64,000 bases of DNA from Sphingobacterium bovistauri (GTDB taxonomy: Bacteria > Bacteroidota > Bacteroidia > Sphingobacteriales > Sphingobacteriaceae), in the NCBI RefSeq assembly GCF_020295405.1, contig NZ_JADEYP010000001.1:124001-188000 (forward strand). Direction: 5' to 3'. Positions 40,660-47,970 of the stretch are shown one piece after another. A program made the position numbers and the translations under genes. Numbering within the stretch: position 1 is the stretch's first letter; every line of letters starts with the position of its first letter. The notes beneath the pieces are model-generated. The model did no database searches. It was given only the letters and a program-made list of their open reading frames with translations, and was not told where the DNA came from.

Positions 40660-43374
40660 TTATTTCTGCATTCTAATATTCAAAGACAACATAAAATATC
40701 TTCCTAATCTATTTTTCCTTTCTTCGAACACATCATTACCAATGTATTCTGAATATATTCCCATTTGTTTATTTTGATCAAACAAATCATATACTTGAAG
40801 CCGTAGTAGCGCAGTACGGTTTTGTAAAAAAGTGTATTCCATAAATGCGTTCATCATAGTCTGATTTACATTCATAAATTTACTAATATACCCATCGTTA
40901 TAACGCTGTGACATCTCAAAACCAAGTGAATAATTATCCTTGACATACCCCTTCGCTCCTAGTCCTAAGAATAATGTTTCTACATTAATTTTTGTTCTAT
41001 AAGGTATATCATAACTTGCATTGTTCAAAGAATAATTAGTATTAAAGATACTCTCCAAATAATTATTAAAAGAGTACTTTAGTTGAATTGATTGATTAAA
41101 TATCAATTGTTTAGTAGTTCTTTCTCTGTCTTCTATAAAAGAAATATTATTATAATAATCTACCCCACCATTTAAATCTAGCATCCAATTATCATTTTCA
41201 AAAGGAGTATTGAAAATATAATTCCATTTCCAATCATAATAACCATTTGCGTTTCTAAAAGTAGTCTTTTGAATTGTTGAATTCTCAACGGGCCTTTTAT
41301 CTGTTACAATTTTATCTTTGATCAAATTATATGAAAAATTTGTCTCCAAATATTGCATTTTAACAGGCAAAAAAGCTCTAAATGTGGTAACGATACCATG
41401 TGCTAGTTCTGCCTTCAATTCTGGATTTCCTAATACAATATTTCTGGAGTTTGTATTATTCAAAACGGGTGCAATCTGATAAAAACTTGGTTGGTTGTTT
41501 CTTCCCTTATAACTAATTTGAAAATCTACATTATTAGATAACTTATAACTAAAATTTGTAGTTGGTATCAAATTGATATTCTCGTAGTTATAATTCAATG
41601 TATCATAACCTAGATCACCACTCATTTTAATTGGTTGAACAGCAAAACCAATATTAAATTTCAATCTTTTACTTGGTGCAAATTGATAAATAACTCCTAT
41701 CTTATTACTTCTGAACTTATACCCGTAATCCATTGTTAATGAATCAATGATGTTCATTTCATCTTCCTTCATCCAATTGTACACATAACGCCGAGCATTA
41801 ATTTTATTATAATCTAACTCATATTTAAACTCAAATAGACTATTATTCAAAAAAGGTTCTACAAATGATAATGACAAATTGCTGCTTGCATTATTATTAT
41901 TATGATTAATAAATTGATGATTTAATTCATCGGTATAATCAATTACATTTTTGCTATAAACTGAATAATTTTCTCGAACAAACTGCTTATTTTTTAACGA
42001 ATTTGAACGAGAATTAAATTTGCCTACTAATTTTCTATCCTTCTTTTTAAAATACTTTGAATATAAGACATCAATATCAACGGTTGGGATATTATGTTTA
42101 GCAGAATCTTGAATGATACCCTTATTTACTTTTTGAAAGTTACTTAAGACAGATTCCTTATTATTTATTACGGATTTTGTATTAAACGTAAGATTCCCTT
42201 CAACTTTCAAGATATCCGCATTTTCTAACTTACCATCAAACAAAACCTTAAACCTCTGGTTATCATCAGTTTGATCTTGATCGTAATTTTCACTCTTTGA
42301 AATTGTGTTACCTATATACGACGACCTCATTTCAGAGTATCCACTAGTAATGGTATTTTTTTTGATATAGTTATAAGAAGTCGTAAGTCTTGAGTTCTTT
42401 CCTACCCTATTAGCTAAGTTGATCCCTACAGATGATGTCGTATTTATACCATCAATAGGATCAATAAATTCACTCATTTCTAAATTATTTGCAGACCTTT
42501 TACCTCCTACTATATCACCATAGGAGAATAAATTTGTATTCGTATTATTAAATGAGCCTAATATGGACAACTCATTTCCATCATTGAATCTATTAAAACC
42601 AAAACTACCCAAATAACGAGAGTTTGTACCCGCACCTATGGTAAACTGTCCGAAATGAAGTATTTTCTTATCTTCCTTCAGATTTATATTCAATAATTTT
42701 TCCTTTTCCTGAAAATCAGCAATACCTGTTTCTCCACCTTGACTTGTAGTCTGAAGTTCAATCAATTGTATATTATTTATATAATCGACAGGAAGGTTTT
42801 TTGTAGCTGTTATGATATCTCCACCAAAAAACTCATTATTATTTACTTTTACCTTTTTAATTTGGTTACCATTATAGTAAACTGACCCATCTCTTGAAAT
42901 ATGAAAACCTGGAATTTTCTTCAATCCATCTTCTAGCAAGGTTTGTTTCCTAAAAGTAAAGGCACCAAAATTATATTGGATTGTATCACCATTTAAAATC
43001 ATAGGAATTACTCTTGTGACCGAAACATCCTCTATTCTAAATGCTACTTTATTCAAGATAATATCTGGTAAAACGAAGCTTTTTTGAGTGATATCAATTT
43101 TATATTTTTTCTCTTGAGCTTCATAGCCGAGCATGCTGTACCTTATCGTAACATCCTCGCTTTTTGAAAGATTAAATCTATAAACACCCGAACTATTCGT
43201 GACATGAGTTATTGAATCATTGGGGGTATAGAAACGGACTATTACATCTTTGATAGGTAAATTTAAACTGTCTTTGACGACGCCTAAAATTTGGTTCTGA
43301 GCAAAAAGCAAATTTGTTGTTACGAGCATAACAAACAAATATAATACGACTATTTTTAGCTGCTTTAAAACCAC
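40660..43374 (-). CDS. Outer membrane beta-barrel protein (TonB-receptor-like, OMP_b-brl_3 type)
   Basis: 904 residues. Signal peptide (about 1-26), a carboxypeptidase-regulatory-like domain (about 28-110; ILGVVKDSLNLPIKDVIVRF), a plug-like segment (about 115-215; DGLKKIPGFHISRDGSVYYN and KVKVNNNEFFGGDI), then a long barrel ending in YFMLSLNIRMQK. This is the Bacteroidota barrel family related to TonB receptors but without a SusD partner. Start is GTG at 43374; no better ATG precedes the signal peptide. Cargo unknown. Confidence 0.85.
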   Translation of the reverse strand: MVLKQLKIVVLYLFVMLVTTNLLFAQNQILGVVKDSLNLPIKDVIVRFYTPNDSITHVTNSSGVYRFNLSKSEDVTIRYSMLGYEAQEKKYKIDITQKSFVLPDIILNKVAFRIEDVSVTRVIPMILNGDTIQYNFGAFTFRKQTLLEDGLKKIPGFHISRDGSVYYNGNQIKKVKVNNNEFFGGDIITATKNLPVDYINNIQLIELQTTSQGGETGIADFQEKEKLLNINLKEDKKILHFGQFTIGAGTNSRYLGSFGFNRFNDGNELSILGSFNNTNTNLFSYGDIVGGKRSANNLEMSEFIDPIDGINTTSSVGINLANRVGKNSRLTTSYNYIKKNTITSGYSEMRSSYIGNTISKSENYDQDQTDDNQRFKVLFDGKLENADILKVEGNLTFNTKSVINNKESVLSNFQKVNKGIIQDSAKHNIPTVDIDVLYSKYFKKKDRKLVGKFNSRSNSLKNKQFVRENYSVYSKNVIDYTDELNHQFINHNNNNASSNLSLSFVEPFLNNSLFEFKYELDYNKINARRYVYNWMKEDEMNIIDSLTMDYGYKFRSNKIGVIYQFAPSKRLKFNIGFAVQPIKMSGDLGYDTLNYNYENINLIPTTNFSYKLSNNVDFQISYKGRNNQPSFYQIAPVLNNTNSRNIVLGNPELKAELAHGIVTTFRAFLPVKMQYLETNFSYNLIKDKIVTDKRPVENSTIQKTTFRNANGYYDWKWNYIFNTPFENDNWMLDLNGGVDYYNNISFIEDRERTTKQLIFNQSIQLKYSFNNYLESIFNTNYSLNNASYDIPYRTKINVETLFLGLGAKGYVKDNYSLGFEMSQRYNDGYISKFMNVNQTMMNAFMEYTFLQNRTALLRLQVYDLFDQNKQMGIYSEYIGNDVFEERKNRLGRYFMLSLNIRMQK

Positions 43375-43536: not shown

Positions 43537-44064
43537 TTATTCGCCGTCGAAACAAACTTTAACTAAATGTCTGTCAATTTCCCAACGTCCCGTTCCTTCT
43601 TCACCGATTACATCAAATAATTCTAAAATACGACGACATACAAATTCTTCTTCAACTTGTTCTGACAAGAACCAACCTAAGAAGTTGAAAGTAACATAAT
43701 CCTTTGCCTTCGTACATTTATCAGCAATATTATTAAATTGCTCAGTTACAAACATCTCCTGCTCCAAAGCTTGTTCGAATACACCACGGAATGATTCAAA
43801 ATCTGTAGGGATATTAGTAACTTCTGGTGAAATAGCTTTACCACCACGACTAGATACATAATTGAATAATTTCAACATGTGCTCACGCTCTTCGTCAGAT
43901 TGCTTAGCAAAAAATTTAGAAGCATTATCTAAACCTTGTTCACCACACCAAGCTGACATAGCTAGGTATAATGATGATGAATGAGCCTCTACTTTGATTT
44001 GTGCATTTAATATATTTTCAATCTCTTCTGTTAAAGATGATTTTAGTTTCAATAAATCTTTCAT
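43537..44064 (-). CDS. ftnA: Ferritin (FtnA-type, non-heme)
   Basis: Iron-storage 24-mer subunit, 175 residues. The ferroxidase residues line up with E. coli FtnA at a constant offset of nine: Glu26, Glu59, His62, Glu103 and Gln136; third-site residues Glu58, Glu135, Glu138/139 are also present. It oxidises Fe(II) and stores the Fe(III) mineral in the cytosol. A TATCTTTG box lies about 75 bases upstream, leaving a long leader; the gene is followed by its own terminator. A small conserved protein gene sits just upstream on the same strand. Confidence 0.94.
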   Translation of the reverse strand: MKDLLKLKSSLTEEIENILNAQIKVEAHSSSLYLAMSAWCGEQGLDNASKFFAKQSDEEREHMLKLFNYVSSRGGKAISPEVTNIPTDFESFRGVFEQALEQEMFVTEQFNNIADKCTKAKDYVTFNFLGWFLSEQVEEEFVCRRILELFDVIGEEGTGRWEIDRHLVKVCFDGE

Positions 44065-44671: not shown

Positions 44672-44702
44672 TAAAATCACTAAACATTTTACATCCATTA
44701 TT

Positions 44703-44731
44703 TTGTTTTATCTATCAATATTGTACATTTG
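44703..44731 (+). promoter_or_regulatory. Promoter of the Cys-rich small protein / MbnP-like locus
   Basis: TTG at 44703-44705, 18-base spacer, then TACATTTG at 44724-44731. The ATG at 44738 lies six bases after the box, where transcription should begin, so the mRNA may be leaderless. This box also covers the TTG at 44729, arguing against that codon as the start. Confidence 0.6.
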
Positions 44732-44737
44732 CCTGAA

Positions 44738-45109
44738 ATGAAAATTTTTTTGTTATATATATTAATCCCCATCATGTTACTTCAATGTAACATGACCTTA
44801 GTTATATCAACATCTTTCTATTACAATCAAAACTATATCGAAAAATATCTATGTGTGCAGCGAAGCATGCAAAACAATACGTGTCATGGACAATGTTACT
44901 TGATGCAAAAGCTAAAGAAACAACAAGAAAAAGAACAGCAAAGTTTTAAAATCAATTTCCAAGAAGGTATAGCTGTCCAACATCAATTATTTTCATTTGA
45001 TATAAATTTGGCAGTTCAAAAAAGCACACCCCAATATAATCTATATAGTACAAATCTTAATCCGCGAGATTATTCATTTAATCTATATCACCCTCCCGTT
45101 TTCGGATAA
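44738..45109 (+). CDS. Small exported Cys-rich protein of unknown function
   Basis: 123 residues from ATG 44738, with an N-terminal hydrophobic segment (about 2-25). The mature part has CVQRSMQNNTCHGQCYLMQKLKK in brief: a Cys, nine residues, then CHGQC followed by a Lys/Gln-rich helix, and it ends with YHPPVFG. I recall small Bacteroidota proteins with a similar C-x(n)-C-x-GKC-YL core and terminal HPP motif, without an assigned function. The Cys/His core suggests metal or heme binding. It leads the MbnP/di-heme peroxidase locus, 79 bases upstream of MbnP. Confidence 0.75.
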   Translation: MKIFLLYILIPIMLLQCNMTLVISTSFYYNQNYIEKYLCVQRSMQNNTCHGQCYLMQKLKKQQEKEQQSFKINFQEGIAVQHQLFSFDINLAVQKSTPQYNLYSTNLNPRDYSFNLYHPPVFG

Positions 45110-45188
45110 TAACTTTCACTTATATTTTCACAAATGCATTTAAACTCAAATTAGATGCATAATATTTCATGTTATTATCTCTTCATTG

Positions 45189-45989
45189 ATGAAAAAAATT
45201 ATATTGGCTATCACATGTATAGCGAGCCTGTTAAGCAGTTGCGAAAAAAGCAAAGACCTACAAATTGACAACAATAAACAAGGACAACTTAAAATCAAAT
45301 TTGACCATATCGTAGGTAGTAAAAAACTAGTTTTAAATGAGTACACCTATTCTAATACTAGCAACGAAACTTTCAATATCACTATGTTGAGATATTTTGT
45401 AAGTAATATTAAACTTACAAAACTGAATGGGGATGTATACAGCCTTCCAAAAGAAAAGTCATTTTTCCTTATAGATGCTGCTAGTGATTCTTCCTTGTCT
45501 CCGAAACTATTGATTCCTGAGGGAGAATATAAAATTTTGGAATTCAATTTGGGCGTAGATAGTCTTACTAATACTTTACCTATTGAACAACGTACAGGCG
45601 TTTTGGATATTGCAACAAATGGCATGTATTGGGCATGGAACTCGGGGTATATACATTTCAAATTAGAAGGAAATTCACCTCAATCCACAAATGCTAACAA
45701 AAGTTTCAAATATCACATAGGTCTATTTGGTGGATATGATAGTCCAACGGTAAATAATAATCGTAAAATATCAGTTGATCTGACAAAGGCTGGATTAAGT
45801 AAAGTTCAACAAAATCTATCCTCAGACATTCATTTGATGGTAGATATTGGTAAAATATTCGACGGAAAGCACACTATATCTATTCAAGAGACACCAGTAG
45901 TAATGACTTCTGGTCCACATACCAAAATAGCGGACAACTACGCCACAATGTTCAGTCATGATCATACTCATAATTTTCAAAAATTGTAA
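45189..45989 (+). CDS. MbnP-like copper-associated lipoprotein
   Basis: 266-residue lipoprotein (LLSSC lipobox, Cys18) that fits the MbnP family, periplasmic copper-binding proteins whose Trp is converted to kynurenine by the partner peroxidase MbnH. Features: GQLKIKFDHIVGSKKL start, LRYFVSNIKL, and the GMYWAWNSGYIHFKLEG segment with two Trp; candidate ligands His39 and the C-terminal HDHTH. The first possible codon is TTG (45186); ATG 45189 is preferred. The peroxidase ATG follows its stop codon with no gap. Which Trp would be modified, and whether copper is the metal, is inferred. Confidence 0.85.
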   Translation: MKKIILAITCIASLLSSCEKSKDLQIDNNKQGQLKIKFDHIVGSKKLVLNEYTYSNTSNETFNITMLRYFVSNIKLTKLNGDVYSLPKEKSFFLIDAASDSSLSPKLLIPEGEYKILEFNLGVDSLTNTLPIEQRTGVLDIATNGMYWAWNSGYIHFKLEGNSPQSTNANKSFKYHIGLFGGYDSPTVNNNRKISVDLTKAGLSKVQQNLSSDIHLMVDIGKIFDGKHTISIQETPVVMTSGPHTKIADNYATMFSHDHTHNFQKL

Positions 45990-47024
45990 ATGATGAGAAT
46001 TAAGAAGAAGTTAAGTGTAATTCTTCTGTTGATATGTACGATATGGGCCTGTAAAAAAGCAGACGACCTGAACCTCTATACATTTGTAGGATTCATAAAA
46101 CCAGCTCATTTTCCGGAACCGACGTACAAGTTTACATCGACAGCATTAACAGAGGAAACGTTCAATTTGGGCAGAAAACTGTTTCATGATGGTATTTTAT
46201 CTCGTGACAATAGTATTTCATGTGCCAGCTGTCACATCAGCCAAAATTCATTTACACATCATGGTCATGATGTAAGTCATGGTATAGATGACCAATTAGG
46301 CGTACGCAATTCATTAGCGCTAGTGAATTTAGCCTGGTCAACATCATTCTTTTGGGATGGTGGTGTCCAACAATTGGATTTGACCTCCATAGTACCTATT
46401 CATAGTGAAATAGAAATGGATGAGACTATAGACAATATAATCAAAAAGCTGCGTGCACAAGAACAATACCCTAAGTTATTTGAAAATGCCTTTGGATCTA
46501 CTGAAATTAGCTCCAACAACGTGCTAAAAGCTATATCCCATTATATGGTTTCTTTGGTATCGGACAACTCTAAATATGACGAAGTCAAAAGAAATAAAGC
46601 CATATTCACTACCGAAGAAGCTAGTGGATATAAAATCTTTCTTGCTAAATGTAATTCCTGCCATCAAGAACCCCTATTCACTGACTACAGTTTTAGAGAT
46701 AATGGATTAGGAATTAATCCTGCAAAAGATTTGGGCAGGTACGAAATCACACTAAAAGAAGAAGACAAACTGAAATTTAAGGTCCCAACACTTAGAAATT
46801 TAAAATATACAGCGCCATATATGCATGATGGTAGAATTTACAACCTGCAGGGGGTCTTAAATCATTATGCAAGAGAGGTGGTTCAGACTCCTACTTTAGA
46901 CCCTATAATTCAGCAAAACAATGGAATACCATTAACCCAACAAGAAATGAAAGATCTTCTGGCATTTCTGAATACATTGAATGATGATTCTTTCGTAAAC
47001 AACAAAACATTTATGCAGCCATGA
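45990..47024 (+). CDS. Di-heme cytochrome c peroxidase (MbnH/CcpA family)
   Basis: 344-residue lipoprotein (TIWACKK, Cys21) with two c-type heme sites, CASCH at 78-82 and CNSCH at 221-225, and Met278 (APYMHDGR) as the likely axial ligand of the high-potential heme. The motif FFWDGGVQQLDLTSIVPI is typical of the family. Next to an MbnP-like gene it is most simply an MbnH-type enzyme that modifies MbnP with peroxide, rather than a general peroxidase. Start ATG 45990 directly follows the MbnP stop; its stop overlaps the next ATG (ATGA). Confidence 0.9.
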   Translation: MMRIKKKLSVILLLICTIWACKKADDLNLYTFVGFIKPAHFPEPTYKFTSTALTEETFNLGRKLFHDGILSRDNSISCASCHISQNSFTHHGHDVSHGIDDQLGVRNSLALVNLAWSTSFFWDGGVQQLDLTSIVPIHSEIEMDETIDNIIKKLRAQEQYPKLFENAFGSTEISSNNVLKAISHYMVSLVSDNSKYDEVKRNKAIFTTEEASGYKIFLAKCNSCHQEPLFTDYSFRDNGLGINPAKDLGRYEITLKEEDKLKFKVPTLRNLKYTAPYMHDGRIYNLQGVLNHYAREVVQTPTLDPIIQQNNGIPLTQQEMKDLLAFLNTLNDDSFVNNKTFMQP

Positions 47025-47932
47025 AAAAATTAATTAGTATATCAGTATTAACTCTATTTGCTATAAACTGTTCCTTAGCGTGTGATATTTGCGGTGGTGG
47101 ATTAGGAAATACGTACACAGGATTACTTCCCAATTTTAACAAAAGATTCATAGGTATTCGGTACCATTTCAATCAACTATACACACAACTGGATATTCAT
47201 GGAAATCGTACAGCAATTAGTAATAAAGAAAAATATAATACCGTAGAACTCTGGGGAGCATGGAATGTAGGTTCACGTTGGCGTGTAATGGCTATTGTCC
47301 CCTATAGCCAAATCCAAAAATACAGTTATGGTAGTTCTGAAAAAAATCAAAAAAGCGGTCTAGGTGATCTTAATATTAGTGGTTTATACAATTTAATAAA
47401 CAAAAGCTCAAATTCATTCAGACAATCATTATGGGTTGGTATAGGTGTAAAATTACCTGTCGGTACTTATAACAAAAATGAATATTCCAACACTAACTCT
47501 CCAAATATTTACCAATTGGGTACAGGCAGTACAGATTTTACAACCTCTATTAATTATGACATACGCTATAATAATCTAGGGCTGAATACGAATATGAGTT
47601 ATAAGATAAATACAGAAAATAAAGACGATTATTTATATGGAAATAAATTAACAGTCAGCGGAAGTATATATTACAATACAGTCATTAGCGAATCGATTAC
47701 ATTACGACCAAATGTAGGTTTAATGCACGAAACGCAAGAAAAAGATCATACTATGGGTTATAAAATTGATGGTACTGGAGGCTACAACACAAATATTAAT
47801 ATGGGAATAGAAGCTAATATTAAAAATATAGCTTTAGGATTTACTTATCAAAAACCAACTAAACAAGAAATTAGTCAAGGTAGGACTCAGCTGATAAATA
47901 AATTTTTGACACACATTACATTTACATTTTAA
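47021..47932 (+). CDS. Small outer-membrane barrel protein of the MbnP locus
   Basis: 303 residues: signal peptide (about 1-20) cleaved just before CDICGGGLGNTYTG, giving an N-terminal CxxC with a glycine run, then an all-beta region of alternating aromatic residues (GIRYHFNQLYTQLDIH, GLGDLNISGLYNLI, LGFTYQKPTKQEI) ending in Phe (THITFTF), as in small transporter-like outer-membrane barrels. It overlaps the peroxidase stop by four bases and ends in a terminator, so it closes the locus. Role in metal passage across the outer membrane is conjecture. Confidence 0.75.
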   Translation: MKKLISISVLTLFAINCSLACDICGGGLGNTYTGLLPNFNKRFIGIRYHFNQLYTQLDIHGNRTAISNKEKYNTVELWGAWNVGSRWRVMAIVPYSQIQKYSYGSSEKNQKSGLGDLNISGLYNLINKSSNSFRQSLWVGIGVKLPVGTYNKNEYSNTNSPNIYQLGTGSTDFTTSINYDIRYNNLGLNTNMSYKINTENKDDYLYGNKLTVSGSIYYNTVISESITLRPNVGLMHETQEKDHTMGYKIDGTGGYNTNINMGIEANIKNIALGFTYQKPTKQEISQGRTQLINKFLTHITFTF

Positions 47933-47936
47933 ATGC

Positions 47937-47970
47937 AAAAAGAGCTTCAATATTTTGAAGCTCTTTTTTA
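47937..47970 (+). terminator. Intrinsic terminator closing the MbnP/peroxidase locus
   Basis: Perfect 14-base arms 47937-47950 and 47955-47968 with a TATT loop and flanking A/T runs; it can also serve the convergent SRPBCC gene ending at 47993. Confidence 0.85.

Follow-up and report, generated by a model that had tools for sequence, protein, structure and literature searches.

The window analysed here, a 64,000-nt stretch of Sphingobacterium bovistauri DNA (contig NZ_JADEYP010000001.1, positions 124,001 to 188,000), carries a tight four-gene operon that encodes a small Cys-rich peptide, an MbnP-family lipoprotein, a di-heme enzyme of the MbnH/MauG type and an outer-membrane β-barrel. A first-pass annotation, made from the letters alone, had read the four genes as a metal relay with the small Cys-rich protein as one of its members. 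The gene set stood up to examination, but the features of the first gene fit a cis-acting regulatory leader peptide rather than a relay protein. We consider it quite likely that the operon is a copper-acquisition module controlled by its own nascent leader peptide. Its elements are the following, in window coordinates:

44702-44731, plus strand: promoter, with TTTG (-33) at 44702-44705, 18 nt, and the -7 box TACATTTG at 44724-44731
44738-45109, plus strand: leader peptide gene, 123 aa, with an export signal, C39-x9-C49-x3-C53, a linker and the C-terminus HPP-VFG-stop
44852-44896, plus strand: putative metal-sensing motif CVQRSMQNNTCHGQC, C-x9-C-x3-C
45089-45097, plus strand: putative arrest site, His-Pro-Pro codons of the conserved C-terminal Pro-Pro (residues 119-120)
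45104-45113, plus strand: 5' arm of an RNA helix, GGATAATAAC, covering the leader's final codon and its stop
45171-45180, plus strand: 3' arm of the helix, GTTATTATCT, 18-9 nt ahead of the MbnP ATG (45189)
45189-45989, plus strand: MbnP-family lipoprotein gene, with a PF20243 match and MYWAW (MxWxW) and HxG motifs
45990-47024, plus strand: MbnH/MauG-type di-heme enzyme gene, with two CxxCH
47021-47932, plus strand: outer-membrane β-barrel gene, 12 strands, mature N-terminus CDICGGG
47937-47968, plus strand: strong intrinsic terminator closing the operon (14-bp stem and T-run)

A gap of 79 nt separates the leader gene from MbnP, MbnP and MbnH abut with 0 nt between them, and MbnH and the barrel gene overlap by 4 nt. 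The open reading frames, the two close junctions, the TACATTTG box and the terminator stem bore out the earlier claim of a four-gene operon with its own promoter and terminator. The expected conservation of the neighborhood was also found, since the order of all four genes is kept in nearly all related loci. The genome carrying the locus measures 4.05 Mb and is of Sphingobacterium type. Its closest named relatives at the locus are S. litopenaei, S. cavernae and S. alimentarium, with MbnP identities of 71-73%.

The promoter box, which is of the Bacteroidota type, ends 6 nt upstream of the leader ATG. Rhinopithecimicrobium and most of the other named Sphingobacterium species share it. More generally, 51 of 87 homologous leaders have a TAnnTTTG sequence 4-13 nt in front of the ATG, against a total of about 0.5 expected. 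Because of this recurrence, we regard the predicted promoter as real and the leader mRNA as probably leaderless or near-leaderless, without a 5' untranslated region. A sigma-70 promoter scan, which is blind to the Bacteroidota-type promoter, was uninformative (28 matches versus 25.9 expected).

The leader peptide has a highly conserved C-terminus. Pro-Pro occurs within the last 12 residues in all 145 unique homologues across Bacteroidota, compared with 2 of 329 downstream-encoded proteins. The pair lies 1-8 residues ahead of the stop, usually 2-4. It is preceded by His in 85 homologues and by Arg in 29 (114 of the 145 together), and Phe stands two positions ahead of it in 105, which gives the motif F[H/R]PP. 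All three Cys residues are invariant across 26 diverse homologues. The distance from C-x9-C-x3-C to Pro-Pro remains at 65.7 ± 1.6 residues, while the linker sequence itself varies. In a comparison of four to five close species, the gene shows strong protein-level selection, with a nonsynonymous rate (pN) of about 0.15-0.18 against a synonymous rate (pS) of about 0.8-0.9 and not a single indel. Over their final 120 nt, the leaders are C-rich and G-poor (C-G skew 0.27 versus -0.01, p 3e-36). In one family (f18; L133, L137, L138, L143, L150 and L160), the leaders end in DHPP and do not match the three-Cys pattern; their sensing motif may differ.

The Pfam matches of the leader to DAN and Cnd2 fell below the cut-offs, and the Cys-rich DAN match was not believed. 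The DUF2946 profile (PF11162) found no match in the window leader, in 25 homologues or in the leader's own genome, and membership of that family was rejected. True DUF2946 leaders, with a His-rich middle and a C-terminal RAPP or RGPP, are present in a few Bacteroidota, at loci apart from those of the F[H/R]PP family (L234:1387-1791; L235:1381-1710, minus strand; L236:1390-1821, minus strand; L237:1363-1773). The L234 leader belongs to a Sphingobacterium relative.

The end of the leader gene can pair with the stretch directly ahead of the MbnP start to form an RNA helix. To assess this helix with no fold assumed, the duplex energy of the two arms belonging to one leader was compared with that of arms swapped between genomes. 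In 69 non-redundant loci, own arms paired far more strongly than swapped ones (z = -11.8), and none of 5,000 permutations was as good. The difference held for the MbnP operons (z = -6.6, n = 34), for those with a gene of TonB-receptor size (z = -6.0, n = 16) and for the others (z = -4.8, n = 19). Fifty-one further pairs of neighboring genes from these loci gave no arm-pairing signal (z = -0.3, p = 0.37). A sliding scan revealed sharp peaks, with the 5' arm between -12 and +6 of the leader end and the 3' arm between -24 and -6 of the next start. The median onset of the 5' arm falls 0-1 nt past the second Pro codon, also in subsets differing in tail length. Tail length and the position of the helix were weakly rank-correlated (rho = -0.18, p = 0.21), although the medians per tail length track Pro-Pro. 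Stalled at Pro-Pro, a ribosome would thus sit over the 5' arm.

Among closely related named Sphingobacterium species, the pairing is retained with different sequences, as expected of a covarying helix. The leader thus has an mRNA structure that a stalled ribosome could alter, a criterion for regulatory arrest peptides. A plain intrinsic attenuator in the gap between the leader and MbnP was rejected, as no T-run follows the helix in the window. An Rfam search gave nothing relevant, and no Shine-Dalgarno sequence is evident in the window here.

The leader family is widespread in the phylum. Our leader model matched 153 of 395 sampled Bacteroidota genomes (39%), often several times per genome. 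Among 88 sampled leaders, about 27 head operons with MbnP (26 of them also with MbnH), and about 47 head operons with a gene of TonB-receptor size. In the examples tested, the latter was a TonB receptor, followed by PepSY_TM. SCO1/SenC and YtkA also occur in leader-headed operons, and cytochrome oxidase subunit I (COX1) is less tightly linked and lies further downstream. At L098:993-4471 and at L157, a leader stands upstream of DUF2911 and COX1 in such a loose linkage. Tandem leaders precede a single operon at L046:6940-7924 (MbnP, MbnH and barrel) and at L083:7972-8976 (TonB-receptor-size gene), as if sensing steps were stacked. A single leader is followed by a duplicated MbnP-MbnH-MbnP-MbnH-barrel array at L214, L215, L227 and L231, where the MbnP copies fall into clearly different score classes. 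In genomes of the same family as the window, the leader heads nearly every MbnP locus examined.

Taken together, the fixed spacing between the Cys motif and Pro-Pro, the C-terminal Pro-Pro, the helix anchored on it, the unrelated copper operons headed by the family and the C-rich 3' end fit a regulatory leader. In its sequence, the peptide looks like a metal-sensing arrest peptide of the CruR or CutF type, not like a relay protein.

The three proteins encoded downstream were largely as previously assigned. MbnP matches Pfam PF20243 at 1.4e-50 (172 bits against a cut-off of 27), in agreement with the proposed identity. Its AlphaFold2 model has a mean predicted local distance difference test (pLDDT) score of 91, and the only significant Foldseek matches in the PDB were Methylosinus MbnP structures (best 7l6g, 1.3e-9). 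A profile search also matched 7l6g, whereas phmmer of the single MbnP sequence against the PDB gave no match. The MxWxW and HxG motifs are invariant in 37 homologues (M146, W148, W150 and H176). In a crude count for a possible surface-export signal (LES) behind the lipobox Cys, 19 of 33 MbnP proteins had at least two acidic residues, but the pattern often chose the wrong Cys. MbnH matches CCP_MauG (PF03150) at 1.6e-51, which places it in that superfamily as anticipated. Its best PDB match is 6e1c, both CxxCH motifs are invariant in 36 homologues, and its N-terminus in the window resembles a lipobox. Against the TIGR equivalog models, MbnP scored 58 bits (TIGR04052, MbnP_like_WxW; cut-off 140) and MbnH 210 bits (TIGR04039; cut-off 362.85), although the latter was the best of all NCBIfam models. 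Because both lie under these cut-offs, the two proteins are, on their scores, relatives rather than strict members of the equivalog families.

The absence of methanobactin genes reported for the locus extends to the genome, in which no MbnB was found; methanobactin biosynthesis was rejected here on that account. The barrel prediction also held. The model (pLDDT 84) has 12 strands and, by Foldseek, resembles FapF (2e-12) and the COG4313 channel 4rl8 (1.8e-10); the window protein has no Pfam match. Its N-terminal Cys motif proved conserved, with CxxCG invariant in 28 homologues, but the detail had been misjudged, since the CDICGGG of this strain is CDICGCG in most relatives. Upstream of the operon, on the minus strand, lie a ferritin gene (43537-44064) and a gene for an OMP_b-brl_3 outer-membrane protein (40660-43374).

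These features can be assembled into a mechanism. RNA polymerase would start at or next to the leader ATG. The leader would be exported, and C-x9-C-x3-C would leave the ribosome early, 64-68 residues ahead of Pro-Pro. At low copper, the nascent chain would arrest at His/Arg-Pro-Pro just ahead of the stop codon. The stalled ribosome would then cover the 5' arm and expose the stretch immediately ahead of the MbnP start, allowing translation of MbnP, MbnH and the barrel. Once the Cys motif binds copper, the arrest would be relieved, so that the leader is completed and released, the helix closes and MbnP is not initiated. The untranslated C-rich, G-poor RNA might then be open to Rho, and the operon perhaps terminated. 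MbnH would oxidise a Trp in the MxWxW motif of MbnP to create a copper site at the outer membrane, beside the COG4313-type channel, and a relay from MbnP to the barrel is possible. The direction of the switch, with copper as the off signal, is suggested by analogy with CruR and by CorA and MopE, two functional analogues of MbnP that copper represses.

Several other explanations have to be considered. The invariant Cys residues, the protein-level selection and the co-occurrence with MbnP and MbnH would also suit a periplasmic metallochaperone that passes copper to MbnP and the barrel, completing a relay from the periplasm to the outer membrane. Such a protein has no need of a Pro-Pro that in all homologues lies 8 residues or fewer from the stop, and needs neither a constant length from Cys to Pro-Pro across a variable linker nor an mRNA helix anchored on Pro-Pro. 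Moreover, the family also heads operons without any MbnP, and we regard a metallochaperone as very unlikely. Rho-dependent premature termination alone, as for CruR (PMC9426467), would be in keeping with the strong excess of C over G at the leader 3' end. The helix would then be a by-product or a stabiliser of the mRNA, yet it is specific to leader junctions, anchored on Pro-Pro and centered on the initiation region, which makes this account distinctly improbable.

The signal and its sign may also be questioned. The signal for the same arrest-and-helix machinery might be iron or zinc, the redox state or the status of export: iron is also served by TonB receptors and PepSY reductases, a Cys motif could sense redox, and other Bacteroidota upstream open reading frames (uORFs) with C-terminal Pro precede sec genes. 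The MbnP, MbnH, SCO1 and YtkA partners, however, point to copper, and we give a different signal little credence. Copper could instead promote the arrest, switching the operon on in excess, with MbnP, MbnH and the barrel serving detoxification or sequestration. CutF of Rhodobacter works in this way, with a CxxxC and a stem-loop that hides the downstream start (PMC9973294), and the helix described here is of the CutF type. This sign is nonetheless unlikely, as most partner genes serve uptake or the assembly of cuproenzymes (TonB receptor, PepSY_TM, SCO1), like those of CruR, and CorA and MopE are repressed by copper.

Some observations weigh against a leader that senses copper by arrest and turns the operon on when copper is scarce. 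Stalling and copper as the ligand are what we infer for this family, as are the downstream start codons and the transcription starts. The leaders carry F[H/R]PP instead of the RAPP or RGPP known for strong arrest, and CutF has the opposite sign, with copper promoting stalling (PMC9973294). Iron metabolism, too, can make use of TonB receptors and PepSY proteins. For a minority of leaders the helix is weak or missing, and in those loci Rho or another step may dominate. Finally, of 37 MbnP loci in distant named genomes, only 8 had a detectable leader nearby, so the link between leader and MbnP is not universal.

Beyond this operon, we lean towards a phylum-wide family of arrest peptides that end in or near F[H/R]PP and lie outside DUF2946. 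Such leaders would read copper in the nascent chain on leaderless mRNAs, with a helix linking the arrest codons to the next start, at many Bacteroidota operons for copper acquisition or cuproenzyme assembly (MbnP-MbnH-barrel, TonB receptor/PepSY, SCO1). Copper-scarcity sensing appears little described in Bacteroidota. If the leader model is true, one recognisable peptide would mark a copper-uptake regulon across the phylum, a function would be assigned to many small 'hypothetical' genes, and F[H/R]PP would be added as an arrest motif overlooked by RAPP-based searches. The helix anchored on Pro-Pro makes the mechanism testable with few point mutations. The main text of the related literature, in the portions available, does not describe the F[H/R]PP motif, the Pro-Pro-anchored helix, the likely leaderless transcript or the Bacteroidota MbnP-MbnH-barrel cassette.

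Pairs of MbnP and MbnH without methanobactin are already known, in print since 2013; their conservation far beyond methanobactin producers was reported by Kenney and Rosenzweig (PMC3621798), and the leader reading is the new part. Like MbnP/MbnH, CorA/CorB and MopE/SACCP (PMC3621798, PMC3912023), the present pair has the MbnP fold (7l6g), MxWxW and an adjoining di-heme MauG-like partner. It differs in its Bacteroidota lipoprotein forms, the lack of methanobactin, the added barrel and leader, and scores below the TIGR equivalog cut-offs. The barrel shares its predicted 12-strand fold with the FapF and COG4313 channels (5o65, 4rl8), and differs from them in a short N-terminal CDxCGx segment and in matching no Pfam family.

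The leader resembles SecM and other RAPP/RAGP arrest peptides in its C-terminal Pro arrest-like motif and in a helix that a stalled ribosome would open. Those peptides, however, monitor Sec/YidC, whereas this family uses F[H/R]PP (PMC10987492, PMC12992588). A 2025 EMBO J survey based on RAPP/RGPP reported no copper-related arrest uORFs in Bacteroidota, which the F[H/R]PP family would explain. With CutF, the leader shares a length below 150 aa, a signal peptide, CxxxC, C-terminal Pro-Pro and a stem-loop over the start region of the next gene. CutF differs in preceding a multicopper oxidase and in being switched on by copper (PMC9973294), and the present locus in having no evident Shine-Dalgarno sequence. 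The survey of CutF-like proteins required fewer than 150 aa, Pro-Pro in the last 15 residues, an N-terminal signal peptide and a same-strand next gene within 1,000 nt. The leader passes these filters, with 123 aa, Pro-Pro at 119-120, a hydrophobic N-terminus (signal peptide judged by eye) and a 79-nt gap. As 19% of the 5,334 proteins in that survey come from Bacteroidota (PMC9973294), its supplementary list probably includes the F[H/R]PP family already.

CruR, the DUF2946 copper-sensing leader peptide of Bordetella pertussis, has a CXXC and, across a fixed spacer, a RAPP arrest motif at its C-terminus, and its control uses Rho, whose site in cruR is C-rich and G-poor (PMC9426467). Its CXXC placed 45 residues from RAPP is not found in our leader, which has C-x9-C-x3-C about 66 residues from F[H/R]PP. 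Unlike CruR, the leader has no DUF2946 match, a short intergenic region with a helix and probably a leaderless mRNA. Like CruR, it is the first gene, is apparently exported and carries a Cys motif at a fixed distance from a Pro-Pro motif near the stop. Its family likewise has 3' ends richer in C than in G and heads TonB receptor/PepSY_TM and MbnPH-like operons, in parallel with the TonB receptor, PepSY_TM, ScoC-type and MbnPH-like partners of cruR (PMC9426467).

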